Below, in pieces: positions 22,681 through 47,297 of a stretch of 64,000 nt of DNA. The stretch's first letter is position 1. Every line of letters begins with the position of its first letter. The DNA lies in contig NZ_JBFMVT010000002.1 of the NCBI RefSeq assembly GCF_040786275.1, positions 2,542,001 to 2,606,000 on the forward strand. The letters run 5' to 3'. The notes below the pieces were generated by a model, which was not told where the DNA came from, did no database searches, and saw only the letters and a program-made list of their open reading frames with translations. Position numbers and translations under genes: made by a program. The DNA comes from Buttiauxella gaviniae. Its GTDB lineage: Bacteria; Pseudomonadota; Gammaproteobacteria; Enterobacterales; Enterobacteriaceae.

Positions 22681-22868
22681 TAGTTGTTTATTGCAGCCTG
22701 ATATTCCTGTTGGGCTGCATTCTCCCTTCTGCTCTTAATTCTGAAAACTTCATTTTTTATCTAACCCAATATTTCACCTTCCAGATTCTATACTCAGAAC
22801 GTTAGCTTTGTGAGCGCCTTCCAAACGGCCTTTATCAACGCATCACTGTAGTGAATTGTGGAGGTTTA

Positions 22869-25800
22869 ATGTTTGCTTCAGATGAGAGCCACGCCTGGTC
22901 CAAAGCATTACTGATTCTTGCTATGTGCCTGAGTAATGAGGCTTTCGCCGCCACAACGATCCCTTCTTCGACAACCACCGTTAACCTGCAAACACTTTCA
23001 TCCACCGATACATCCTTTGTGCTACCTGCCACGGGGACGATTAGAACCTTGCAGGGCGATGGAATTGATGCTGATGCCTCGCGTAGTTGGGAATTGCTTA
23101 TTCAGGGGGTTGTTAATGCCGCGGATATTGGGGTGAATCTGGCGGGCAATAATAATTCGCTGGTGAACAGTGGAACGATAGGCAGCAATGGCGGAATTGC
23201 GATCTTACTGAATGGGGCCGGGAATTTAATTACGCTGAATTCCGGTTCAGTGATTAATGGCAGTATCTTCAGCTCCGGTTACAAAAATGCGTTGGTGCTC
23301 CAGGGCAAAGGGAGTATCGGCGGTAGTATTGGCGGCTCAAATGGTTTCGATACCATTGACGTAGTCAATGATAGCTGGGTGCTTGAGGATAGCGTGTTAC
23401 TCAGCGATGCATCTGATGCTCTGCTGACAATTGGTAAGGGAAGTGCATTGACGCTTCCGGGGACGTTAAGCAGCAAAAATAACCAGACGGCGACGGCGCT
23501 GATTGAAAGTGGCGGCCTGCTACAGATAGGCAACGGGGGGACAAGTGGCGAGATTCACTTCCCTATTATTAACGAAGGCGTACTCGCCTTTTTCCGCTCC
23601 GATACCGTCTATGAATTATCTACCCCGATTTCAGGCAACGGAATCTTGTTACTTAAAGGTACTGAAGTCAGCGGAGAGTCCTCATACCTGTTGAACAGTG
23701 ATAATCCCGCATTTACCGGCAATGTCATTATTGCTAAAGGTGCGCGTTTACACGTTAATAATACAAACCCGGCCCCCAAAGCGCATGTTCTGGTACTGAA
23801 TGGCGGCACCCTCTGGTTAGGGAGTACCGCGAATTTTACTACACCCATTTTGCTTGAAGGTAATGGTTGGGATGAGAGCGGTGGCCCGTACGGCTCATTG
23901 CGACTTGATAGCAGCGCGATTCAGGCAGGCTCCGTGGAACTTACCGGAAACGCGCGAATTACGGCGATTTTCGACAACTACTCAGGAACCATTTCCGGCC
24001 AGATTAGCGATGGGGGAAAGGGTTATCAGATTGAAAAATACGGCAACGGTTTAATCACGCTTTCCGGAGATAACACCTGGAGCGGAGGAATGTTGCTCTC
24101 CCAGGGGCGTCTTTCCGTTTCCGCAGACAGCAACCTCGGGGCTTCTTCCGGCACATTAATATTCAACGGTGGCTTGCTGGAAATGACGGGCGATTTTGTT
24201 AGTCAGCGAGCGCTAGCGGTAAACGCACCGGGCGGCGCCATTTTTTCAACCGGAACAAACACTTTTGTCGGAGGGAGCAGTGGCAGCGGCCCACTAACGT
24301 TAGGTAGCGGCACGCTAGTCCTGGCGGGTAACGACACCCGAACCGGGAATACTATCGTCTACGCAGATTCTCACCTGCAAATTGGCTCAAATGATGTGAA
24401 CAACGCCGTGCAAGGCACGTTAAGCGGAAATGTCCTCAATAACGGGACTTTAACGTTTAACCGCTCGGGGGAGTCATCTTATAGCGGTGTGCTGGAGGGA
24501 AGCGGAGCACTGATCAAACAAAACAGTGGGCTAGTTGACCTCACCGGCGCGGGCTCTTCGCAGGGTAGCGTGGCGGTGAATGGCGGTACGCTGAGGTTTT
24601 CTCCTGCGGGTCCGTTTAACGTTGCTGGAACGCTCATAACCGCTGCGGGGGCGCAAACCTCGGTATCGACGGGTTCTCAACTGAACATTCAGGGCGCGAT
24701 GACGCAGCAGGCAGGCGCGGCGCTGGAAACCTCCGTGGATGCTTCGCAGCCCGCGGCTATCGCTCCCACTATTGCGCTTAATGGCGCGTTAAAGGTGAGT
24801 GGCGCACCCGTTTCAGCCAGCAGTATTACCGCTAAAACATTGACCATTTTGCACAGTACCAACGCTTCAGGAATAAGCGGTGACTTCTCTTCATTGGGAT
24901 TCAGTAATCCTGCCGATTATCTCATTGTGAACGGCAGCAAAGTTAACAACGATCAGGACTACAACCTGGGATTTGGTTTGACGTGGTTTGCTGGCCCCGC
25001 GCAGGGTAACGGGAACTTTACCCTGATCAACCCCAGCGATACGTTTGATATGGATATAGCCCTGACCAACCAAACGCCGCCATTTTCCAGCGGGTGGGAC
25101 GGGCAAACTCTCACGAAGGCAGGTGCCGGGACGCTGATTTTATCGCAACCCAATACTTATACCGGCAGCACTCTGGTTAACGGTGGGACGTTGCAAACGA
25201 ATGTGCAAGACGCGTTTGCCAGTTCAGGGAACGTCGTTGTTAATTCAGGCGCGACGCTCAATCTGAACAATTTTAACCAGCAAGCCAATAATCTCAGCGG
25301 CGGAGGTGCCGTCAGTCTCGGCAACGCGGCACTGACGGTGACAAATAACAGTGACAGCCAGTTTGCCGGGAATATTTCTGGAAACGGCTCGCTGGTTAAA
25401 AACGGCGCTCAAACCCTGACTCTTGCGGGCAATAATACCTTTGCTGGTGGCCTGGCGATTAATGCCGGCACATTAATCGCCACGTCGGGAGCCGCTCTGG
25501 GGGCCGGTGCGGTGGTAAACAATACGGTTCTGACGCTGGCGTTTACGACCAGGAGCCTGGTGAAAAACTTGCTTTCTGGCAGCGGTACGCTCAACAAAGA
25601 GGGCAGCGGCTGGGCGCAATTACTGAAAACGGGATCTTCTGCCGGGCGGGTTAACGTCAACAGTGGAGTGCTGAATTTCGGCGAAGGCGTCACTTTCACC
25701 AGTAATGACGATTTCAATACTGCCGCTGGAGCGGTTACCCGCATTGATAATGGTGGTGCGCTAAATGTAGTGAATAGATTTGATCTCAAAGGTGAACTGG

Positions 25801-28127
25801 CCGTTGTACCTGGTGAAATGGAGCCAGTTGTCACGGCAAATACCGTGCTGCTTGATAGCCAGTCGATGCTAAACATTGCAGGTCTGACGACCGATGATGA
25901 ATTGCCAGAAGCGCAGCGTTTTTTGCAATCCTTTAAAGTCATCAGCACAGCTGCACCCGGCGGGATTAGCGGGGATTTTTCGGAGCTACATATTGGCGGC
26001 TCGGCGTCTCCCGTCGATTATGCGACGCTCACCGGATATAAAGATCTTCTCAGCCAACACTACAATGTGGATATTCGCCTTAACTGGTATGCGCAACATT
26101 CCAGCACGCCAGAGATTGCGAATGGCGTATTTACGCTAGCCGATGCAGGTGAATCATTCCGCCTTGGAAGCCTGCTGATTGACCAAAAGCCTAACCCTGC
26201 CACCGCCTGGGATGGCAAAACACTCACCAAAGCTGGGCAGGGGACGCTCATCCTTGCAAAGCATAATCAGTTTACTGGCCCGACGCTGATTAACGGCGGC
26301 ACTCTGCAGACAGCTATTGATAACGCGCTGGCGTTAAGTAGTGAAGTGAACATTGCCAGTGGCGCAACCTTTGCGCTGGACGGTTTCGATCAGAACGTGA
26401 ATCGCATTTCTGGTAACGGCGATATCACGCTCGGAGATGCGCAACTCAGCGTGAATAACAACAGCGGTGCGGTGTTTGGCGGCACGATCAGCGGCAGCGG
26501 TGGGCTGATTAAAAACGGCGCGGGGGATTTGCAATTTCTGGCCAATCAGGCGTGGACAGGCTCCACCGCTATTAATAGCGGGAGCCTGACTCTGGGTGCC
26601 AGTCCCGCCGCTGAGGTAAATCTTTCCAGTTCCCAGGTAAACATTGCCTCAGGCTCAATGCTCGGCGGCTATGGCAGCATCGCCGGAAATGTTTCAAACC
26701 AGGGAACCATCGCTGTAGCGGATGCGGCACCGCAATTTTCTGAAGGTGCCGCCGGGAATCTGGTCATCGGCGGTGATTTGATTAACGCAGGCCAAATTAT
26801 TATGGCAAGCCCCGTTCCGGCCAGCTCGCTTATTATTAACGGCAATTACCAAGGAAATGATGGGCTGTTAACGTTAAGCACGGTACTGGGCGATGACAAT
26901 TCAGCCACGGATAAATTGATTATTCTCGGCAACAGCAGCGGCAGCACGCAGGTGAAAATTAATAACGCTGGTGGGGCGGGCGCGGCGACTGTTAACGGCA
27001 TTGAAATTATTCACGTCGCGGGCCAGTCCAACGGCATTTTTACTCTGAACGGGCGCGTGGTGGCCGGGGCTTACGACTACTTTTTGCACCAGGGGTTACC
27101 AGGCACGCCAAACGGTAACTGGTACTTGCGCAGCCAGCTTCCCGAGCCTCCACCAAATCCTCCCGTTCCTCCGGCGCCACAGCCTGAAATTGTTCGCCCT
27201 GAAGCCGGGAGCTATCTGGCGAACAAATCCGCGGCGAGTAACATGTTTACGCAGCGGCTGGAAGACAGAGCTGGCCGGGCAGAAAACTCAACCCTGTGGC
27301 TGCGTCAAATTGGCACGCATACCGGCGCCTACGATGGCAGCGGTCAGCTAAAAACCACCGCTAATAGCTATATGATTCAGGGCGGCGGTGAACTGGCGCA
27401 AGGGAGTTTCTTCCAGGACGACAGGCTTGGCGTGGGCGTTATGTTTGGCTACGGCAACGCACATAGTCATACAGACTCGAATCGTAGCGGCTATAGCTCA
27501 AAAGGTTCTGTGGATGGCTACAGCAGCGGGGTTTATGGAACCTGGTATCAGAACGCTAAAAGTCTGGAAGGAACGTACGTCGATAGCTGGCTGCAATACA
27601 GTTGGTTTAAAGCGCAAGTGAAAGGCGACGATCTGGAAACGGAAAACTATCACCTCAACGGCTTTAGCGGCTCGCTGGAAACAGGGTACCGAATGGGGAT
27701 TTATCAGGGCGAGAACAGTCGCGTTTTCCTGACGCCGCAGGCACAGATCATCTGGGACGGATTACAGGCTGATTCTCATACGGAAAACAATGGCACCCAT
27801 GTGACGTACCCGGATGGCAACAACCTGCAAAGTCGGCTTGGGCTGAAACTTTCCCGCGACGGTGTATCCACCAAAGATAAGCCCAGCGGCAAGCTCTTCA
27901 CCACTTATGTGGAAGCCAACTGGCTACACAACAGTGACCCGGCTACGGTGGCGCTCGATAATGAAAAAGTGGGGCTTTCCGGAACGCGTAATGTTGGGGA
28001 ACTGAAATTGGGCATTGAAGGGAAATTATCCGCGCGCCTGAACGTGTGGGGCAATGTGGCGCAGCAAATGGGAGGCAGCGGCTACAGTGCAACCTCCGGC
28101 GTAATCGGTGTGGATTATCGCTTTTAA
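22869..28127 (+). CDS. Large autotransporter (type Va) with beta-helical passenger
   Basis: A 1752-residue surface protein. The ATG at 22869 is chosen because GGAGG lies 5 bases before it; a GTG six codons upstream is less likely. Signal peptide with likely cleavage after EAFA (about residue 30). The passenger is a Gly/Asn/Ser-rich beta-helix with autotransporter-associated repeats (LTKAG.GTLIL, T..G.T.INGGTLQT). It contains a duplicated module of about 370 residues (nt about 24,980-26,080 and 26,080-26,650). A Pro-rich linker (PEPPPNPPVPP, about 1427-1437) leads to a beta-barrel of about 300 residues ending in the expected Phe (VDYRF). Function (adhesion, biofilm or other) is not readable. 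No protease triad was recognised. It lies where E. coli has the ttd tartrate genes. Confidence 0.92.
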   Translation: MFASDESHAWSKALLILAMCLSNEAFAATTIPSSTTTVNLQTLSSTDTSFVLPATGTIRTLQGDGIDADASRSWELLIQGVVNAADIGVNLAGNNNSLVNSGTIGSNGGIAILLNGAGNLITLNSGSVINGSIFSSGYKNALVLQGKGSIGGSIGGSNGFDTIDVVNDSWVLEDSVLLSDASDALLTIGKGSALTLPGTLSSKNNQTATALIESGGLLQIGNGGTSGEIHFPIINEGVLAFFRSDTVYELSTPISGNGILLLKGTEVSGESSYLLNSDNPAFTGNVIIAKGARLHVNNTNPAPKAHVLVLNGGTLWLGSTANFTTPILLEGNGWDESGGPYGSLRLDSSAIQAGSVELTGNARITAIFDNYSGTISGQISDGGKGYQIEKYGNGLITLSGDNTWSGGMLLSQGRLSVSADSNLGASSGTLIFNGGLLEMTGDFVSQRALAVNAPGGAIFSTGTNTFVGGSSGSGPLTLGSGTLVLAGNDTRTGNTIVYADSHLQIGSNDVNNAVQGTLSGNVLNNGTLTFNRSGESSYSGVLEGSGALIKQNSGLVDLTGAGSSQGSVAVNGGTLRFSPAGPFNVAGTLITAAGAQTSVSTGSQLNIQGAMTQQAGAALETSVDASQPAAIAPTIALNGALKVSGAPVSASSITAKTLTILHSTNASGISGDFSSLGFSNPADYLIVNGSKVNNDQDYNLGFGLTWFAGPAQGNGNFTLINPSDTFDMDIALTNQTPPFSSGWDGQTLTKAGAGTLILSQPNTYTGSTLVNGGTLQTNVQDAFASSGNVVVNSGATLNLNNFNQQANNLSGGGAVSLGNAALTVTNNSDSQFAGNISGNGSLVKNGAQTLTLAGNNTFAGGLAINAGTLIATSGAALGAGAVVNNTVLTLAFTTRSLVKNLLSGSGTLNKEGSGWAQLLKTGSSAGRVNVNSGVLNFGEGVTFTSNDDFNTAAGAVTRIDNGGALNVVNRFDLKGELAVVPGEMEPVVTANTVLLDSQSMLNIAGLTTDDELPEAQRFLQSFKVISTAAPGGISGDFSELHIGGSASPVDYATLTGYKDLLSQHYNVDIRLNWYAQHSSTPEIANGVFTLADAGESFRLGSLLIDQKPNPATAWDGKTLTKAGQGTLILAKHNQFTGPTLINGGTLQTAIDNALALSSEVNIASGATFALDGFDQNVNRISGNGDITLGDAQLSVNNNSGAVFGGTISGSGGLIKNGAGDLQFLANQAWTGSTAINSGSLTLGASPAAEVNLSSSQVNIASGSMLGGYGSIAGNVSNQGTIAVADAAPQFSEGAAGNLVIGGDLINAGQIIMASPVPASSLIINGNYQGNDGLLTLSTVLGDDNSATDKLIILGNSSGSTQVKINNAGGAGAATVNGIEIIHVAGQSNGIFTLNGRVVAGAYDYFLHQGLPGTPNGNWYLRSQLPEPPPNPPVPPAPQPEIVRPEAGSYLANKSAASNMFTQRLEDRAGRAENSTLWLRQIGTHTGAYDGSGQLKTTANSYMIQGGGELAQGSFFQDDRLGVGVMFGYGNAHSHTDSNRSGYSSKGSVDGYSSGVYGTWYQNAKSLEGTYVDSWLQYSWFKAQVKGDDLETENYHLNGFSGSLETGYRMGIYQGENSRVFLTPQAQIIWDGLQADSHTENNGTHVTYPDGNNLQSRLGLKLSRDGVSTKDKPSGKLFTTYVEANWLHNSDPATVALDNEKVGLSGTRNVGELKLGIEGKLSARLNVWGNVAQQMGGSGYSATSGVIGVDYRF

Positions 28128-30326: not shown

Positions 30327-30376
30327 TGTGGCGATAATCACATTCCTGCTTTTCATTCCTGACTATTATCATCTGC
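30327..30376 (+). promoter_or_regulatory. Class II CRP-dependent promoter of the PTS-mannosidase operon
   Basis: TGTGG-N6-TCACA (30327-30342) is a near-consensus CRP site (TGTGA-N6-TCACA) within AT-rich flanks. A TATTAT -10 hexamer at 30364-30369 gives a start near 30376, so the CRP centre (30334.5) lies at -41.5, exactly the class II spacing. No good -35 hexamer exists, as expected for an activator-dependent promoter. It would place the operon under catabolite control. Confidence 0.72.
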
Positions 30377-30393
30377 TCGTTTCTGGAGGAAAT

Positions 30394-30894
30394 ATGTCAG
30401 CCATCGTCCATCGATTTATCAGTTATTGCTTTTATTGCCTGCTGGGGAAATTCAGCAGCGTGAAGACATTGCTGTGCGGACTTTGCTGTTTCAATTCCAT
30501 TCAGTCATTGAGCGCTGCGGAAGAGTCTGCCCAGGAAAATAATGAAGATGAATTTTCTGGCGGCTGGTCGCGTTTATGGGGCTGTGCCAGCCAAAGTTTG
30601 TTTGCATCAACAAAACATCTCCCCATTCCGCAATCTTCTGGCCGCGTAAATACCACTATTCAGGCTCGTCTGGTGGCGCAGCATCGCCATGAACTGGGGT
30701 TTAGCTTCACTACCCGCAGTGTTCACCAATTACTGGTTTGCCATCGTTTGAGCGGCGAGTCAGACGGCCCTTTAGATTCCCATAACATGCTGTTTTATTG
30801 CTTAAAAAGCACAATGCGCCACGCGGCCATTGTGCTTTTTTTATTGTCCAAATCCGACCTGAGAGAGAAATCATTATGTATATCGTTTGTGTAG
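30394..30894 (+). CDS. Unknown leader ORF crossing a terminator, upstream of PTS genes
   Basis: A 166-codon ORF with a strong GGAGGA Shine-Dalgarno (30385-30390) 18 bases after the predicted CRP promoter start. The product is not recognised. It has a Cys-rich hydrophobic N-terminal part (about 5-42, KTLLCGLCCFNSIQSLSA) that could be a signal peptide, then a polar, Ser/His-rich part and a hydrophobic end. Its frame runs through a strong intrinsic terminator (30804-30842) and ends 19 bases inside the PTS IIB gene. It may be a translated leader controlling read-through, a small exported protein, or decayed coding sequence: another frame at 30396-30539 also looks protein-like (IYQLLLLLPAGEIQQREDIA). 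Treat the product as unproven. Confidence 0.38.
   Translation: MSAIVHRFISYCFYCLLGKFSSVKTLLCGLCCFNSIQSLSAAEESAQENNEDEFSGGWSRLWGCASQSLFASTKHLPIPQSSGRVNTTIQARLVAQHRHELGFSFTTRSVHQLLVCHRLSGESDGPLDSHNMLFYCLKSTMRHAAIVLFLLSKSDLREKSLCISFV
30804..30842 (+). terminator. Strong intrinsic terminator 33 bp before the PTS IIB gene
   Basis: Perfect 13-bp stem AAAAAGCACAATG / CATTGTGCTTTTT with an 11-base loop and seven T (30836-30842). There is no room for a promoter between it and the IIB start at 30876, so expression of the operon should need read-through. This suggests attenuation or antitermination. No BglG-type antiterminator sequence was recognised upstream. Confidence 0.85.
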
Positions 30895-31190
30895 CTGCAT
30901 GTCCGACCGGCGTTGCCCACACCTTTATGGCCGCCGAAGCGCTGGAAATCACAGGCAAAAATCGCGGGCATGAAATTAAAGTCGAAACCCAGGGCAGCAT
31001 GGGGGCGGAAAACGAAATAACCGCTGAAGACCTGGCGCGAGCAGATGGTGTGATCATCGCCGCCGACGTCGCTATCAACAACAAAGAGCGTTTCGATGGC
31101 ATGCTAAAGCTGGAATGCAGCGTGGCAGACCCGATCAAATTCGCTGATGCGGTGTTTGAAGCCATTGAGCAGGAGATAAATCATGGCTAA
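30876..31190 (+). CDS. PTS fructose-type EIIB component
   Basis: A 104-residue fructose-family IIB protein. Cys9 in AACPTGVAHTFMAAEAL is the phosphorylated residue. It takes phosphate from IIA and passes it to the sugar bound by IIC. The ATG at 30876 follows GAGAGAG, and the protein ends 8 bases inside the IIC gene, so the two are coupled. E. coli frw/fry systems have similar separate IIB units, whereas E. coli MngA has IIA, IIB and IIC in one chain. Confidence 0.92.
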   Translation: MYIVCVAACPTGVAHTFMAAEALEITGKNRGHEIKVETQGSMGAENEITAEDLARADGVIIAADVAINNKERFDGMLKLECSVADPIKFADAVFEAIEQEINHG

Positions 31191-32310
31191 ATTTCAGGGC
31201 GGCGGGGTGAAATCCTCCGCGGGTACGGAAGTGAAAAACGCCATTATGACCGGCGTGTCATACATGCTGCCGTTTGTCATTGCCGGAGCGGTGATTATGG
31301 GTATCGCCCGTATCGGCGCTTCGATGTATGGCATTGATAACATTTGGGATGCCAGCCACGAACAGGCCGCAAGCGTGGTCGTGCAGATGCTGCATAAATT
31401 CGACGGCTTTGGCGGGCTCGCACTCTCTTTGATGCTGCCGATTGTCGCGGGCTACATCAGTTTTGCCATTGCCAATAAGCCTGGGATTGCGCCGGGAATG
31501 GTGGGCGGCCTGCTGGCAAGTAACCTGGGAACCGGCTTTCTGGGCGCGCTGGCTGCGGGTTTTGTGGCAGGTTACATCGTCCGTCTACTGACGGCAAAAG
31601 TAAAACTGCCGCGCTCGCTGGCCTCCGCAGGGCCGATTTTCATCCTGCCCGTTGGCGGTACGTTGCTGACCTGCATCATCATGGCGTTTGTGATTGGTAC
31701 GCCGCTGGCGGCGCTAAATCGCGGTATGGAAGCGTGGCTGCTGGCGATGTCCGGCACCAACAAAATCATTCTGGCGGCGGTGGTTGGCGGTATGGTCGGC
31801 TTTGACCTTGGCGGCCCGGTCAACAAAGCGGCAGTCACGACGGCGATGGCGCTGCTGGCGTCCGGCATTTATGACCCGAACACGGCGGCACAGGTCGCGA
31901 TTATCATCCCGCCAATTGGCCTCGGCGTCGCTTCGCTTATCTGGAAACATCGTTTCCCTGAATCGCTGCAAGAAGCGGGTAAGGCCTCAACGTTGATGGG
32001 CCTGATTGGGGTTTCAGAAGGGGCCATTCCTTTTGCGCTGGCAAATCCAAAAATCATTATTATTAACGTCATCGGTACCGCGACCGGGTCTGCAATGGCG
32101 GTCGGTTTAGGTGCGGTAAACCATGCCCCTATTTCTGGTTTTTACGGCTGGTTAGCCGTTGATGGCTGGCCGGTATATATCCTGTCTATCGCCGTTGGCT
32201 CCGCGATTGTCGCAGTGGGTTCTCTGCTGGTTTTCCGCCAGTCTACGCCCTCTGGCAATAAAGAAGAAAAAGTGGCAGCGCCTGCGCCTAAATTTAAAGT
32301 GAGCCGCTAA
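31183..32310 (+). CDS. PTS fructose-type EIIC permease
   Basis: A 375-residue integral membrane protein with about eight to ten hydrophobic segments, the sugar channel of a fructose-family PTS. Typical blocks: TGVSYMLPFVIAGAVIMGIA, KPGIAPGMVGGLLASN, GGMVGFDLGGPVNKAA and GVSEGAIPFAL. Gene order and the alpha-mannosidase behind it suggest a mannoside, perhaps mannosylglycerate, as substrate, but the IIC itself does not prove this. A 136-bp gap without a gene follows. Confidence 0.92.
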   Translation: MAKFQGGGVKSSAGTEVKNAIMTGVSYMLPFVIAGAVIMGIARIGASMYGIDNIWDASHEQAASVVVQMLHKFDGFGGLALSLMLPIVAGYISFAIANKPGIAPGMVGGLLASNLGTGFLGALAAGFVAGYIVRLLTAKVKLPRSLASAGPIFILPVGGTLLTCIIMAFVIGTPLAALNRGMEAWLLAMSGTNKIILAAVVGGMVGFDLGGPVNKAAVTTAMALLASGIYDPNTAAQVAIIIPPIGLGVASLIWKHRFPESLQEAGKASTLMGLIGVSEGAIPFALANPKIIIINVIGTATGSAMAVGLGAVNHAPISGFYGWLAVDGWPVYILSIAVGSAIVAVGSLLVFRQSTPSGNKEEKVAAPAPKFKVSR

Positions 32311-32446: not shown

Positions 32447-35035
32447 ATGAAAACGGTTCATCTGATACAACATACTCATTGGGATCGTGAATGGTATTTT
32501 ACCGAGAATGATTCTAAAGCAGTGCTTTATTATTTTATGGAAGATTTATTGCAGCGTCTGGAAGATGACCCCACTCTTGGGCCATTTGTTCTTGATGGGC
32601 AAACGGTGGTCATTGAAGATTATTTAAGTGTGGCCCCGCATCAGGAAAATCGGCTACGAAAATTAATTGCACAAGGGCGAATCACGATTGGCCCGTGGTA
32701 CACACAAAGCGATTTTCTGGTGGTCGGCGCGGAGTCGATTACGCGTAATTTGCTGCTGGGCCACGCGGATTGCCAGCGTTTTGGTGACGCAATGCCGATT
32801 GGTTATGTCCCTGATTCCTTTGGTCAAAGCGCCCAGCTTCCGATGTTTCTGCAACAGTTTGCTATCGACCATGCCGTTATCTGGCGCGGCTGGAGTGAGC
32901 ACAACGTCCCGCACAGCGAGTTTAGCTGGCAGAGCGCTGACGGTAGCAAAGTGACCACCGCCGTGCTGCCGTGGGGGTATGGCTGCGCGAAATGGCTGCC
33001 GGATGATCCTCAACACGCCCAAAAAACGCTGGAACCGATTCTGGCGAAACAGACGCGATTTTCACTGACCGACCAGGTTTTGCTGCCCAACGGCAACGAC
33101 CAGTCGCCGTTTGAATATCGGGTTCCGGCCATGCTCGACCAGCTAAATCAGCAACAAGATCAGTATCACTTTGTGCGCAGCAGTTTCAGCCAGTTTTTCC
33201 AGGCGCTGGAAAACAGCAACGTGGCGCTGCCGGAATATCAGGGTGAGCTGATTAGCCCGAAATACATGCGTATCCATCGCGGGATTTTCTCAACGCGCGT
33301 TGATATTAAGCAACTGAATGCCCGTCTCGAACAGACATTAAGCCAACACCTGGAACCATTGCTGGCGCTGAACTGGCGTCTTGGCTTGCCGTATCCGCAG
33401 TATGCGGTTGATAGCATCTGGCGCGAAGCGATGAAATCCCACGCCCATGACAGTATCGGCGGGTGCAACTCCGACCGCGTGAATGCGATGGTCAAAAACC
33501 GCCTCGAATCAGGCCTGGAAATGGCGCACCAGCTTATCGACCTGAACATGAAAATGCTGGCGGAAGGCATTTCAGCCCGACAGGACGGCAAGAAAATCAT
33601 TATTTTTAATGCCCGCCCGCAGGCCAGTACCGGCCTGGTCGAGCTGACGATTTTTACCCCGGAGCAAGATTTCCGCGTCATCGACGGCGAGGGCAACGAA
33701 TGCCGCTGGCAGATCGTCGAGGAAGGTCGCCAGGACATGTCGATCATCGTCCAGGAGCTTTCAAACAGCACCGAAACTACCTGGTATCGCAAATGTAAAT
33801 TACTGCTGGAAGTACGTGATATTCCGGCGTGCGGCTATCAAACGTTATATCTGCAAGAGGGCGTCAGCGCGGGCTTTAATTCTGAGACGGAACTCGCCGT
33901 GAAACTGGAAAACGAATGGCTGCGCCTGGAAACGGATGAACGGGGCGTTCTGACGTTAACCGACAAACGCAATCAGCAGATTTATCACAACATCTTGCAA
34001 CTGGTGGACGGCGGAGATGCGGGTGATAACTACAACTATTCGCCGCCGTTTGATGACTGGCTGGTCAGTAATGAGGGCTTTCTGGTGTCGGTCAGCGGGA
34101 CACAGGGCTCGTTGCAAAGCAGCCTGACGCTGAACTGGAAGATGGCTGTTCCGCAGGATTTAGCGGCACGCAACGAGCGCCGCGCCGATGCCCAACTTGA
34201 TGTTTCCATGACCATCACGCTTGCGCACAGCAACGCCTGGCTTGATGTAAACATCAGCGTCAATAACACGGTTCGCGATCACCGTTTGCAGGTTCTGCTG
34301 CCGACGAATGTTCAACAACATATTCACTTTGCCGACCAGCCGTTTGGCCTGATTGAGCGTCACAACCAGCCGCCGGAAATGGCCCTCTGGCAGGACGAAC
34401 AATGGACGGAAGCGCCGGTTGCGCTCTATCCGATGCAAAGCCAGGTGATGATGTTTGATACGCAACGCGGGCTGTGCGCGGTGACCGAAGGGCTGCGCGA
34501 ATACCAAATAAATGAAAACAGCCAGGACACCCTCGCGGTGACGTTACTGCGTAGCGTCGGCTGGCTCGGCCAGGCAAACATGCCTTACCGCCCAGGGCGT
34601 GCATCCGGCATGGTTCTGCCATCGCCGGATTCGCAAATTCAGGGGATGCACCATTTCAAACTCAGCGTGCTGCCGATGAATAACGGCGCGGATAAATCCT
34701 TCTGGCGTGACGTCGAACGCGCTCGCGGGCACCTGCATGCCTGGCTTGCTACCGGCTGGTCGCGCTTTCGCACCAATCCTCATGGTCGCGTTTTCCCGCC
34801 GCATTACAGCGTTTTAAGCTGGGACAGCGAGCTTCACTTCAGCGTGCTGAAAAAAGCCCAACACAGCGACGCCCTGGTCGTGCGTGGCTGGAACCCAACG
34901 GCACAGCCTTTGCCGTACGGAACCGTCAAGGCGAACGGGAAAATCACGCCGGTGACGCTTGCTGAAACTGCGTTGCAAACTCATCACGAAGCGGTGCCAA
35001 CGTGTGCGCCAGCGACGTTTGCTATCACTTTTTAA
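32447..35035 (+). CDS. mngB: GH38 alpha-mannosidase, MngB-like
   Basis: An 862-residue glycoside hydrolase family 38 enzyme (E. coli MngB is 877). The N-terminal zinc motif HTHWDREW (ligands His11 and Asp13) and the nucleophile Asp123 in YVPDSFGQSAQLP are intact, as is KSHAHDSIGGCNSD (about 331-344) with further metal ligands. E. coli MngB cleaves 6-phospho-mannosyl-glycerate, made by its PTS, to mannose-6-phosphate and glycerate. The same reaction on a phospho-mannoside is inferred from the PTS neighbours. It is cytoplasmic, with no signal peptide. The next gene starts 13 bp later. Confidence 0.88.
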   Translation: MKTVHLIQHTHWDREWYFTENDSKAVLYYFMEDLLQRLEDDPTLGPFVLDGQTVVIEDYLSVAPHQENRLRKLIAQGRITIGPWYTQSDFLVVGAESITRNLLLGHADCQRFGDAMPIGYVPDSFGQSAQLPMFLQQFAIDHAVIWRGWSEHNVPHSEFSWQSADGSKVTTAVLPWGYGCAKWLPDDPQHAQKTLEPILAKQTRFSLTDQVLLPNGNDQSPFEYRVPAMLDQLNQQQDQYHFVRSSFSQFFQALENSNVALPEYQGELISPKYMRIHRGIFSTRVDIKQLNARLEQTLSQHLEPLLALNWRLGLPYPQYAVDSIWREAMKSHAHDSIGGCNSDRVNAMVKNRLESGLEMAHQLIDLNMKMLAEGISARQDGKKIIIFNARPQASTGLVELTIFTPEQDFRVIDGEGNECRWQIVEEGRQDMSIIVQELSNSTETTWYRKCKLLLEVRDIPACGYQTLYLQEGVSAGFNSETELAVKLENEWLRLETDERGVLTLTDKRNQQIYHNILQLVDGGDAGDNYNYSPPFDDWLVSNEGFLVSVSGTQGSLQSSLTLNWKMAVPQDLAARNERRADAQLDVSMTITLAHSNAWLDVNISVNNTVRDHRLQVLLPTNVQQHIHFADQPFGLIERHNQPPEMALWQDEQWTEAPVALYPMQSQVMMFDTQRGLCAVTEGLREYQINENSQDTLAVTLLRSVGWLGQANMPYRPGRASGMVLPSPDSQIQGMHHFKLSVLPMNNGADKSFWRDVERARGHLHAWLATGWSRFRTNPHGRVFPPHYSVLSWDSELHFSVLKKAQHSDALVVRGWNPTAQPLPYGTVKANGKITPVTLAETALQTHHEAVPTCAPATFAITF

Positions 35036-35048
35036 GGGCGAGAGAACC

Positions 35049-37529
35049 ATGTTAACACTCGACTTTATCTGTACCTTGCCCAACGGCATTCATGCGCGTC
35101 CGGCAAGTGAAATTGAACAGCGCACGCAGGTTTTCACTTCTTCTGTCACGCTGATCAATATCAGCAAGAAAACGCAGGCCGATGCTAAAAGCGTGCTGGG
35201 AATGATCGGCGCGGATATTACCCATGGCGATAAGTGCCAGTTCCTGATTGAAGGTGACGATCGGCAGGCGGCGTATGAATATCTCCTGGCGTTTATGCGC
35301 GATGAATTTGAAGAGTGCGATGAGCCGCTGCCACAAACGCCGGACAATCACGCGCAACCGCTGCCGGTATTTATTGAACATGCAGAGGCAAAATATCTGC
35401 GCGGCAACGGCGTCAGTAAGGGGATCGGGCGTGGCGTTCCGGTTCATATCGATTCCGTCGATCTTTATGAGTTATCGCGCCAGGAACCTGCGGCTGAGGC
35501 TGCCCGCCAGCGGCAGCAATTAAGTGACGCCTGGGCTTTAACCCAAAAAACACTGGCGGAAGGGGATGCGGGGGCCGCGCAAGTGCTGGCGGCACAGCTT
35601 AAATTATTGAGCGATCCGGCCTTTAAAACGTGTTTGCTCTCACACCCGACTGCACGAAATGCGTTGCAGGCCATTGCGCTGACGGCGCAGCAACTCAGCC
35701 AGCCATTACTTAACAGCAGCAGCCAGTATCTGCGTGAGCGGGTGATCGACATCCGCGATCTTTGCCAGGCAATTGCAGCAAACTTACTGGGCAGGCCGCT
35801 TGAGACACAACTGACGCTCACCCAGGACAGCATCGTTATCTGTAGCGGTACGCTCACGCCCGGCCAGTTTTTGCGCCTGCGTAACGCACATTTGAAAGGC
35901 ATCGTGATGGGCGACGGCGGGGAAACCTCACACACCGTGATTCTTGCACGATCATTTGGCATTCCGTTGCTGTGTGGCGTGACGCAAAGTGAGGGGCTGA
36001 CCCGCGAGGCCAGCATGTTGCTGCTCGACAGTCGCTACGGTTTGCTGGTGGCAAATCCCGATACCACCATGGAAAGCTGGTATCGGCTGGAAACCGAAAA
36101 GCAGCGGGCAATTGCTGCCCGCAGTGCCCCGCTGCGCGGGCAACAGGTTGCAACAAGGGATGGCACCAGGGTTAGCGTACTGGCGAATATCGCGCTTGCG
36201 GTGGAAGCGCAGGGCGCATTTGCCCAGGGCGCTGATGGTTTCGGGTTGTTCCGCACCGAAATGCTGTTTTGCGAACGCAGAGAGGCACCGGGCGAAGAGG
36301 AACAATATCAGGCGTATAGCGAGGTGTTAAGAAGCGCCGCGGGTAAAAAAATCACTATCCGCACGCTGGATATTGGCGGCGATAAGCCCTGCGAGTTTCT
36401 TGATTTACCGAAAGAGGAAAACCCGTTCCTTGGTTATCGGGCAGTGCGTATGTACCCGCAATTCCAGGAGATTTTCACCACTCAGGCGCGTGCTTTGCTG
36501 CGGGCAAGCGTTGTGGGGCCGATAAATATTATGGTGCCGATGGTGGCAACGCTTCAGGAAATTCAGTGGCTGCACGGCCAGTTCCATCACATCGCACAAA
36601 CTCTGCAACAAGAAGGTATCGCCGTGGGTGAATGGCATTTGGGCATTATGGTCGAAGTGCCTTCGACGCTTTATCTTCTGGAAAAAGCGGCAAACTATCT
36701 CGATTTTGTTTCGATCGGCAGTAATGACCTGGCGCAGTACTTCCTGGCGTGCGATCGCGGTAACCCTTACGTGCGTCATCTTTACAACTACCGTAATCCG
36801 ACGTTTTTAGCGCTGATGCGTGATATTACCCATCGTGCGCAGGCGGCAGGGCTCAAGATCAGCCTGTGTGGAGAAATGGCCGCTGATAAACAGATGCTGC
36901 CGTTGTTAGTGGGCATGGGATTAACGCAGCTAAGCATGGCGGCGGGAATGATCACGGCCTGTAAGGACGCTCTCACCACTCTGAATACCGCACATTGCCA
37001 GGCGCTTCTTGAGTCAGCTATTGCCTGCGAGAGCGGTGAACAGGTTCTGGAACTCGTTGAACAATTCTTGCGTGCGCAGTCGCAAAAACCGGTTCTGGCG
37101 CCGGAACTGTTGCTGCTGGATAAAACCGTTAGCAGCAAAGAAGAGGCCATTAAGTTGCTGACGGATAACCTGGAAGTGCAGCAGCGCGTGGTATCTGGGC
37201 CGCTGGCAGAAAGGGCGATTTGGGAGCGTGAAGCTGTGTTCTCCACCGCGCTGGGATTCTCCGTGGCTATTCCGCACTGTAAATCACCTCATGTTTTACA
37301 CAGTAGTATTTCACTCTTGCGGCTGAATACGCCGCTTGCCTGGGGTGAAGATGTTGAAGTGCAACTGGTGATTATGCTGACGGTTAACGAGCAGGAGCAG
37401 GATAGCCATATGAAAATATTCTCACGCCTCGCCCGCAAGCTCATGCATAGCGATTTCCGCGAGCAGCTACTGACGCTGTCGGACGCGTCGGCGATTGCCG
37501 CTCTGTTGTCCACCGAACTGGCGCTTTAG
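35049..37529 (+). CDS. Multiphosphoryl transfer protein, HPr-EI-EIIA(Fru) fusion
   Basis: An 826-residue three-domain PTS protein. Domain 1 (1-90) is HPr with His15 in NGIHARPA. Domain 2 (about 115-670) is enzyme I with active His295 in GGETSHT and the PEP-binding GFGLFRTEMLF and CGEMAAD motifs. Domain 3 (about 683-826) is a fructose-type IIA with His743 in AIPHCKSP. The order equals that of E. coli FrwA/PtsA and FryA. It can relay phosphate from PEP to the IIB above without the general PtsHI proteins. The start at 35049 gives a complete HPr and follows GAGAG. It overlaps nothing; the permease starts 4 bp later. Confidence 0.93.
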   Translation: MLTLDFICTLPNGIHARPASEIEQRTQVFTSSVTLINISKKTQADAKSVLGMIGADITHGDKCQFLIEGDDRQAAYEYLLAFMRDEFEECDEPLPQTPDNHAQPLPVFIEHAEAKYLRGNGVSKGIGRGVPVHIDSVDLYELSRQEPAAEAARQRQQLSDAWALTQKTLAEGDAGAAQVLAAQLKLLSDPAFKTCLLSHPTARNALQAIALTAQQLSQPLLNSSSQYLRERVIDIRDLCQAIAANLLGRPLETQLTLTQDSIVICSGTLTPGQFLRLRNAHLKGIVMGDGGETSHTVILARSFGIPLLCGVTQSEGLTREASMLLLDSRYGLLVANPDTTMESWYRLETEKQRAIAARSAPLRGQQVATRDGTRVSVLANIALAVEAQGAFAQGADGFGLFRTEMLFCERREAPGEEEQYQAYSEVLRSAAGKKITIRTLDIGGDKPCEFLDLPKEENPFLGYRAVRMYPQFQEIFTTQARALLRASVVGPINIMVPMVATLQEIQWLHGQFHHIAQTLQQEGIAVGEWHLGIMVEVPSTLYLLEKAANYLDFVSIGSNDLAQYFLACDRGNPYVRHLYNYRNPTFLALMRDITHRAQAAGLKISLCGEMAADKQMLPLLVGMGLTQLSMAAGMITACKDALTTLNTAHCQALLESAIACESGEQVLELVEQFLRAQSQKPVLAPELLLLDKTVSSKEEAIKLLTDNLEVQQRVVSGPLAERAIWEREAVFSTALGFSVAIPHCKSPHVLHSSISLLRLNTPLAWGEDVEVQLVIMLTVNEQEQDSHMKIFSRLARKLMHSDFREQLLTLSDASAIAALLSTELAL

Positions 37530-37533
37530 CAAA

Positions 37534-38769
37534 ATGACTTTAACGACGGCGTTACCGAATGATGCCAAAAGCATTCGCAAACCCCTGGCGGTGCTGACAT
37601 GCGCCTTTTTCCTGTGGGGCTGCCTGACCAGCATCAACAGCGTGTTGATTCCTTTTTTCTATCACTATTTTTCGCTGACTTACCGGGATGCCATGCTGGT
37701 TAATGTCGCATTTTATCTGGCTCCTTTTGTCGCCTGCTTGCCCTGTTCGGCACTGATGGCACGCTTAGGGTACCGGACGACGCTGATGTTGGCGGTAGGG
37801 TTTGCGGTCATGGGCTGCCTGTTAATGGCGCTGGCGATGTGGCTGGTTGCGTTTTCGCTGGTGCTGGTGGCGATCTTTATTCTGGCAATTGGCGTTGCGG
37901 CGATGCAGGTGGTCGCCAATCCTTATGTCACGCGCCTGGGGCCAGAAGCCACGGCGGCGGGGCGGTTGAGTTTGGCTTCTGCAATAAACTCCACCGGCAC
38001 CACCGCAGCGCCTTTGTTGGTTGCCGGGCTGCTGGTTCTCTTCCCGGTGAGCCTTGCAACTCATCAGGAGCCGATACGCTGGCTTTATGTGGTGCTTGCA
38101 GGTCTGGCGTGCGGGTTGATTGGCTTGTTGTCGCTTTGCCGGTTGCCCGACTTTCGCCAACAGCAGATGCAGCGTTTGACTCATAGCGCGAAAGCGCTGT
38201 TTCGTGAATCTCATTTTGTCATCGGGTTGCTGGCGATTTTTACCTATGTCGGCGTGGAAGTGGCGATTGGCACCACGGCACTGAGCTATCTCAGCGATGC
38301 TTCGCTGGGCAATTTGGATCTGCAGCAGGCGACCTCGCTGATTGCAATTTACTGGGGCGGTTCACTCGTAGGACGAATGCTCTACGGTGCAGTAGCGCAT
38401 CGCGTTAACGCGGTAAGTGTATTTCGCATAGCCACCCTCAGCGCGGGGCTATTGGTGATCCTGGCGATTTTTTTGGGTAACCGCTGGGGCGGATTCTGTT
38501 TGCTGTTAATTGGCTTGATGAATTCGCTGATGTATCCGGTGATTTTCTCGCAAAGCGTACGTAATTTGGGGGATAAAACCAGCCTGGCTTCTGCTTTTTT
38601 GATTATGGCGGGGATTGGCGGGGCGGTGCTGCCCTTCCTGCAAGGGTGGATGATGGATGCGGTTGGTTTACGGCTGAGTTTTTTGCTGCCGTGTGCTGCG
38701 TATGGCGTGTTGATGTGGGTTGGCCTGAAAATGCGCCAACCCCTGTCCGTCAGACCGCAGGCGGCGTGA
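37534..38769 (+). CDS. MFS sugar permease, FHS (fucose/glucose-galactose) family
   Basis: A 411-residue major facilitator protein with twelve predicted membrane segments. The FHS-family block [20 protein letters not shown], then [10 protein letters not shown], is present, so it belongs with FucP/GluP-type sugar:H+ symporters. It is the last gene of the operon, 4 bp after the PTS fusion gene and with no clear Shine-Dalgarno, so translational coupling is likely. It might import a free sugar or move a hydrolysis product; the substrate is unknown. Its 3' end overlaps the convergent cca gene by 20 bp. Confidence 0.85.
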
Positions 38770-47045: not shown

Positions 47046-47055
47046 AAGTCTGCTT

Positions 47056-47198
47056 ATTCTCAGGGCGGGGTGTAACTCCCCACCGGCGGTAAATCAGCGA
47101 ACGCTGAAAGCCCGCGAGCGCTCCAGAGCAATCTGGAGGTCAGCAGATCCGGTGTAATTCCGGGGCCGACGGTTATAGTCCGGATGGGAGAGAGTAAC
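47056..47198 (+). ncRNA. FMN riboswitch (RFN element) controlling ribB
   Basis: The conserved RFN sequence elements occur in order: TCTCAGGGCGGGG, CCCCACCGGCGGTAAAT, AGCCCGCGAGCG, GGTCAGCAGATCCGGTG, CCGGGGCCGACGGTTA and AGTCCGGATGGGAGAGAGTA. FMN binding to such aptamers stops ribB expression at transcription and translation in E. coli. About 100 bases with the expression platform lie between it and the ribB ATG. Together with its promoter it fills most of the 371-bp ubiK-ribB gap. Confidence 0.96.
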
Positions 47199-47297
47199 GA
47201 CTAAGCTCAAGCTTTTATCAGCCTGCTCACGTTATTTTTATAGCTCCTAAGACTGCCCTGATTCTGGTAACCATAATTTTAATGAGGTTTTTTTACC

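Follow-up and report, generated by a model that had tools for sequence, protein, structure and literature searches.

A genomic island of Buttiauxella gaviniae, flanked by uppP (PF02673) and cca (poly-A polymerase head domain, PF01743), lies within the 64,000-nucleotide stretch of DNA analysed here, which we call the window. The island carries a PTS operon encoding IIB, IIC, a GH38 alpha-mannosidase of the MngB type, an HPr-EI-IIA fusion and an MFS transporter (Table 1). Before IIB lies a leader with a CRP-like site, a ribosome binding site and an ORF that runs through an intrinsic terminator and ends inside IIB. A preliminary description, made from the sequence alone, had already given this anatomy (ribosome site, 166-codon ORF, terminator and a stop inside IIB), and its placement of these parts proved exact to the base. 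In combining a PTS with a GH38 mannosidase, the operon resembles the mng operon of E. coli (MngA/MngB); that operon, unlike this one, has a fused MngA and a repressor, MngR. Reading the island's ORFs of at least 150 codons by eye, we found none between uppP and cca that encodes a transcription factor. Klebsiella (L015) has an AraC-type gene upstream, which may be the sugar sensor in that genus. Elsewhere in the window, a repeat-rich ORF of 1758 aa (22851-28127) resembled an autotransporter by eye, and an FMN riboswitch (RF00050) was found at 47052-47199, 5' of a ribB-like gene.

Table 1. Features of the leader and of the PTS/GH38 operon, in positions of the window
Feature	Position	Strand	Basis or remark
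CRP-like site TGTGGCGATAATCACA	30327-30342 (centre 30334.5)	+	Read in the sequence; counterpart in 29/29 leaders
-10-like TATTAT	30364-30369	+	Read in the sequence; predicted transcription start near 30376
Ribosome binding site of the leader ORF, GGAGG	30385-30389	+	Sequence and relatives
Leader ORF, 166 codons	30394-30894	+	ORF list; crosses the terminator; stop at 30892-30894, 19 bases inside IIB
C-terminal core of the leader peptide, codons 92-122	30667-30759	+	dN/dS 0.05, most constrained part
Linker, codons 123-138	30760-30807	+	Between genera, length kept and sequence not
Intrinsic terminator inside the leader ORF	30804-30842	+	13-bp stem, seven T; fold and relatives
PTS IIB, operon gene 1	30876-31190	+	PF02302, E 1.5e-18
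PTS IIC	31183-32310	+	PF02378
GH38 alpha-mannosidase (MngB-type)	32447-35035	+	PF01074, PF09261, PF07748
HPr-EI-IIA fusion (start codon putative)	35046-37529	+	PF00381, PF02896, PF00359
MFS transporter, last island gene (start codon putative)	37495-38769	+	PF07690

Promoter, terminator and read-through

The CRP-like site is centred at about -41.5 relative to the predicted transcription start, and the -10-like region, TGACTATTAT, was retained in 8 of 8 Buttiauxella. By itself, a strict CRP pattern is unremarkable, occurring once in the window where 0.47 are expected. At 59-65 nt 5' of the leader ATG, however, a CRP-like site was centred in all 29 related leaders, matching exactly in 18 and with a single mismatch in 11, a placement expected by chance about 0.013 times per locus. 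The class II CRP site at -41.5 that had been proposed is thus present, as a putative site, and recurs in the relatives. A mechanical scan of the window reported neither the terminator nor a sigma-70 promoter at the leader, probably because the terminator loop exceeds the length that the scan permits and because the promoter is CRP-dependent and has no -35 box.

The terminator consists of arms at 30804-30816 and 30828-30840 that form 13 perfect pairs, with seven T at 30836-30842, five of which also pair with the A-run. Its fold has an energy of -21.7 kcal/mol (z -5.83), with none of 200 shuffles as stable; the seven terminators that we folded ranged from -10.7 to -21.7 kcal/mol, with 0 or 1 of 200 shuffles equally stable. 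Comparison of the stem among related genomes, which had been suggested as a check, showed that 15 Enterobacterales sequences have almost the same stem; in Rahnella, one U-A pair is replaced by C-G, a compensatory change. This high conservation would suit an RNA that is read by a factor or ligand (a BglG-type antitermination protein or a riboswitch), with the ORF as a bystander, and BglG-type antiterminators often control PTS operons. The island, however, contains no antiterminator gene, Rfam gave no match near the leader, and such a mechanism would leave the open frame and the dN/dS described below unexplained; we consider it very unlikely. The whole leader was no more structured than its shuffles (z -0.88). 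A candidate antiterminator pairing was sought and rejected, as no pairing occurred at a shared place and the best pairings fell differently in 13 loci.

The last T of the window's terminator lies 33 nt before the IIB ATG, and in 26 IIB loci the distance from the end of the U-run to IIB was 27-36 nt (for one locus, L030, the gap was read by eye, as the script had taken a later T-run). Judged by length alone, this gap leaves no room for a promoter, so that the operon would have to be made by read-through; the need for read-through claimed in the preliminary description is borne out across these loci. The short gap has two exceptions, namely a copy of the leader before a porin gene in Psychromonas (about 140 nt) and locus L052. 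In L052, a group II intron (about 1920-2350; Rfam RF02001, RF01998) starts right after the U-run and splits the leader from IIB; group II introns of this kind insert behind terminators. Psychromonas has two terminators in a row, of a sequence other than that described above, and the leader frame crosses both.

A leader family in Enterobacterales and Psychromonas

By sequence comparison, the leader ORF belongs to an undescribed protein family that precedes IIB of the same PTS/GH38 operon in Enterobacterales and Psychromonas, and the ORF, the terminator and the missing stop recurred in every relative examined. Leader DNA was matched in 8 of 12 Buttiauxella genomes; the four genomes without it also have no close IIC (best E about 1e-62 to 1e-63, vs 1e-225 or better). 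A contig scan with IIC yielded 26 loci, distributed over Buttiauxella, Klebsiella, Superficieibacter, Rahnella, Citrobacter, Enterobacter, an Enterobacteriaceae, Cedecea, Providencia and Psychromonas. In 24 of these loci, tblastn placed the leader directly upstream of IIB, and in the remaining two, both from Psychromonas, the frame is present and shares the invariant residues of the family. Among 392 genomes of the bacterial family, the leader was found in 23 and an IIC orthologue in 24; in the genome with IIC and no leader match (G422), the contig ends where the leader would lie. A broken ORF beside an intact operon, which would have spoken against the preliminary description, was sought among these relatives and not found.

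Broader searches added little to this distribution. At the level of the order, 7 of 394 genomes were matched (three Buttiauxella, two Psychromonas and two weak matches that we took as chance), and a class-level search of 369 genomes returned only the genome itself and two weak matches (E about 0.007-0.008), which were likewise taken as chance and one of which has internal stops. The leader had no match in E. coli DNA (20,395 records) and no accepted match in Pfam, NCBIfam, PHROGs or PDB. Weak matches to the family libraries, up to loose E-value limits, involved only a few scattered members and are attributed to chance. Among the literature matches listed, titles and the beginnings of abstracts held no description of the leader.

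Additional copies of the leader were found in Psychromonas (L033 and L034). A second leader, with an exact CRP-like site and a terminator crossed by its frame, precedes a porin gene (PF16966), so that the whole module of CRP-like site, ORF and terminator is duplicated there; a second promoter may lie between this terminator and the porin gene. A third, diverged leader precedes a metallophosphoesterase gene (PF00149), without a clear U-run terminator. Copies before different genes are hard to explain for a trans-acting protein and natural for a cis-acting control module. At the end of the leader before the porin gene (3824-3845 in L033 and the corresponding position in L034) stands a strong ribosome site and then ATG TAG, perhaps a trimmed IIB start that came along with the duplication.

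Coding selection and the open frame

A comparison of synonymous with non-synonymous change, also suggested beforehand, revealed coding-type selection that ends at the terminator. Across seven Buttiauxella, dN/dS was 0.16 before the terminator, with values of 0.43 in codons 71-91 and 0.05 in the core, which is selection on the amino-acid sequence of the kind that nascent-peptide arrest calls for. Within the terminator dN/dS was 0.41, where synonymous change is low too (0.157), and after it 0.81, a value drawn from about 15 codons of which six overlap IIB. The two other reading frames of the leader gave dN/dS of 1.65 and 1.11 and contained 4-11 stops. Values for the leader elsewhere were 0.25 in Rahnella, 0.35 in a Cedecea-like group and 0.26 in Providencia. 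Across Enterobacterales genera the leader protein is only about 30% identical; mean pairwise identity between genera was 0.46 in the C-terminal core and 0.12 in the linker, and the stem lay 19-23 codons beyond the invariant Cys116 in 27 of 27 leaders. With the core conserved, the linker divergent and the spacing from cysteine to stem fixed, the peptide appears to matter up to the core, and beyond it only length and openness.

This selection bears on what termination would produce. The preliminary description had offered, as an alternative, an Hfq-bound sRNA of about 465 nt, and the RNA would indeed have a U-rich 3' end. The coding constraint nevertheless extends over the whole region before the terminator, and the substitutions in Buttiauxella (synonymous 0.51 vs non-synonymous 0.12) reflect coding selection, not conservation of an RNA. 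Rfam lacks a match here as well, and once a ribosome had reached its 3' end the RNA would be open to rescue-linked decay. We give the sRNA scarcely any credence.

Codons 16-25 (30439-30468), at CTGCTGGGGAAATTCAGCAGCGTG, had low synonymous change in Buttiauxella (pS 0.09). This segment can form a small hairpin and is possibly a pause or RNA element; its single-sequence fold was not better than shuffles (z -0.81).

From the ATG at 30394, the Buttiauxella frame has 138 codons before the terminator, and across leaders the length from ATG to stem is about 129-138 codons. In none of 43 leaders did the leader frame contain a stop before the end of the U-run, vs 53 of 86 off-frames that did (counted from 48 nt 5' of the stem to the end of the U-run). 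For 17 clade representatives, which were picked by the analyst and are not fully independent, the counts were 0 of 17 vs 21 of 34 (Fisher p 8e-6), and shuffling of the linker put the joint chance of the open frames at about 10^-6.7. Among relatives, all three phases occur where the frame meets the stem, the first in-frame stop lies 6-262 nt 3' of the U-run, and the ORF closes, depending on the species, either upstream of IIB or as much as 226 nt within it, so that genera differ in the length and frame of the C-terminal tail. Since the terminator is crossed in three frames and the stop is found at such varied distances, no protein C-terminus is being kept.

As a background set, we collected 36 distinct strong terminators from the window and 20 loci (first ~13 kb of each). 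Leader terminators accounted for 23 of them, with through-frames of at least 142 codons; nine of the other 13 had frames of at most 13 codons and four had frames of 128-209 codons, one of which (L027) was judged antisense. The U-run could also serve as a slippery run for -1 frameshifting. A -1 frameshift joining the leader to IIB at this run was rejected, as the -1 frame stops before IIB in two of eight Buttiauxella (L002 and L006).

Two further explanations were considered. Under plain constitutive read-through, the ratio of leader RNA to operon mRNA would be fixed, or transcription blocked at globally poor translation, and the peptide would have a separate role, for example as an SgrT-like membrane regulator of the PTS. 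Coding selection on the leader would fit such a role, as would the hydrophobic N-terminus: in 25 of 27 leader peptides, the 19-residue segment of highest hydrophobicity begins no later than residue 15, but the value is above 1.6 (Kyte-Doolittle) in only some of them. A released protein, however, would require a stop codon, and neither the variation of the tail between genera nor the leader copies before other genes would be expected; we regard this explanation as improbable. The second is an ArfA-like non-stop gene, in which the leader protein would itself be the product; termination within the ORF would yield non-stop mRNA by design, with the protein kept low by tmRNA and accumulating only when rescue is overloaded. 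Passages of PMC3989581 describe ArfA (YhdL) as carrying a hairpin inside its ORF before the stop codon, so that the terminated mRNA is non-stop; in every leader, too, the hairpin precedes the stop codon, and coding selection ends at the terminator as in ArfA. ArfA, however, is a trans-acting ribosome-rescue protein, whereas the leader is always tied to this operon in Enterobacterales, and Psychromonas has multiple copies, each placed before a different gene, an arrangement for which a protein acting in trans would have no use. Its promoter is of the CRP type, its predicted structure is of low confidence and suggests no fold (pLDDT 54.7, pTM 0.26), and it matches no family. The sequence thus gives no indication of a free-standing trans-acting product, and we think an ArfA-like gene unlikely.

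A candidate translated attenuator

We favour the reading, to which we assign a probability of about two in three, that the leader acts in cis as a translated attenuator of transcription, of the pyrBI type but encoding a long conserved peptide. Its general mechanism is already known: in the E. coli pyrBI operon, as passages of PMC5021804 and PMC4824070 describe it, the leader ORF (pyrL) spans an intrinsic terminator and a ribosome close behind prevents the hairpin. More generally, these passages describe how intrinsic terminators well inside coding regions are suppressed when a ribosome follows RNA polymerase closely; the leading ribosome reaches the polymerase within about 100-200 nt, and termination returns if a ribosome stalls 5' of the pyrL hairpin (PMC4824070, PMC5021804). 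With catch-up over such a distance, a 400-nt coding leader fits without a special pause. Like pyrBI, the Buttiauxella leader ORF is open through an intrinsic terminator, as are all 43 leaders. Its length differs, since pyrL is about 135 bp and responds to UTP via RNA polymerase pausing, whereas the leaders of the Buttiauxella type are not short by this measure (129-138 codons to the stem); the conserved peptide, the CRP-type promoter and the sugar-uptake operon are further differences from pyrBI. That translation across the terminator could be the switch had been suggested in the preliminary description, and the open frame in 43 of 43 leaders, together with the coding selection, argues for it.

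In this attenuator, CRP-cAMP would activate the class II promoter and a ribosome would translate the 138-codon part before the terminator directly behind RNA polymerase. A ribosome keeping pace would cover the terminator's 5' arm while the U-run is being synthesised (a position that we infer from ribosome footprints), no hairpin would form and the operon would be transcribed. Because the ribosome must cover the 5' arm, the frame has to stay open through the hairpin. If the ribosome lagged or stalled earlier, the hairpin would form, transcription would end and the message would be left without a stop codon, with its peptide and RNA cleared by ribosome rescue. Whether the ribosome stays close to RNA polymerase is probably determined by the leader peptide. 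Given the spacing of 19-23 codons, the hairpin would remain free to form if a ribosome were held where the core ends, and the fixed spacing is suggestive of stalling at a defined codon; no recognisable stall motif was seen in the C-terminal core among the motifs known to the analyst. Stalling would presumably be the off state, and whether the nascent chain stalls the ribosome or lets it proceed may depend on the sugar being transported or on the transporter's state. The near-invariant stem sequence across genera exceeds what the attenuator model needs.

In having a conserved peptide encoded in the leader of a regulated operon, the locus resembles TnaC, SecM and other regulatory nascent peptides. 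TnaC acts via Rho and ends in a stop codon, unlike the present leader, which has an intrinsic terminator within its frame and where stalling would be the presumed step. A more specific proposal is that the leader peptide is a nascent-chain sugar sensor that reads the transport state, stalls or frees the ribosome and so switches the terminator, the module being copied before several genes of a regulon and replacing a transcription factor. Its hydrophobic N-terminus, at the membrane, could perhaps read the state of the transport system and, with no stop before the terminator, the peptide would not be released normally from a terminated message. We hold this sensor proposal tentatively and with some doubt.

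If the attenuator reading is true, a catabolic, CRP-activated operon would be governed by the coupling of ribosome and RNA polymerase over an in-frame terminator, with a controlling leader peptide that is conserved across genera. Such a leader would provide a natural, comparative way to study when intrinsic termination is overridden by translation and how nascent chains sense. The family, for which Pfam and NCBIfam have no model, would also represent regulatory genes that standard annotation can miss.

The module can move, as Chimaeribacter arupi (L072) carries the whole PTS/GH38 operon on a 251-kb plasmid, with the leader before IIB. No annotated feature lies under the leader match on this plasmid, whose gene table is incomplete. 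A metallophosphoesterase of the same kind as that behind the third Psychromonas leader follows the operon there.
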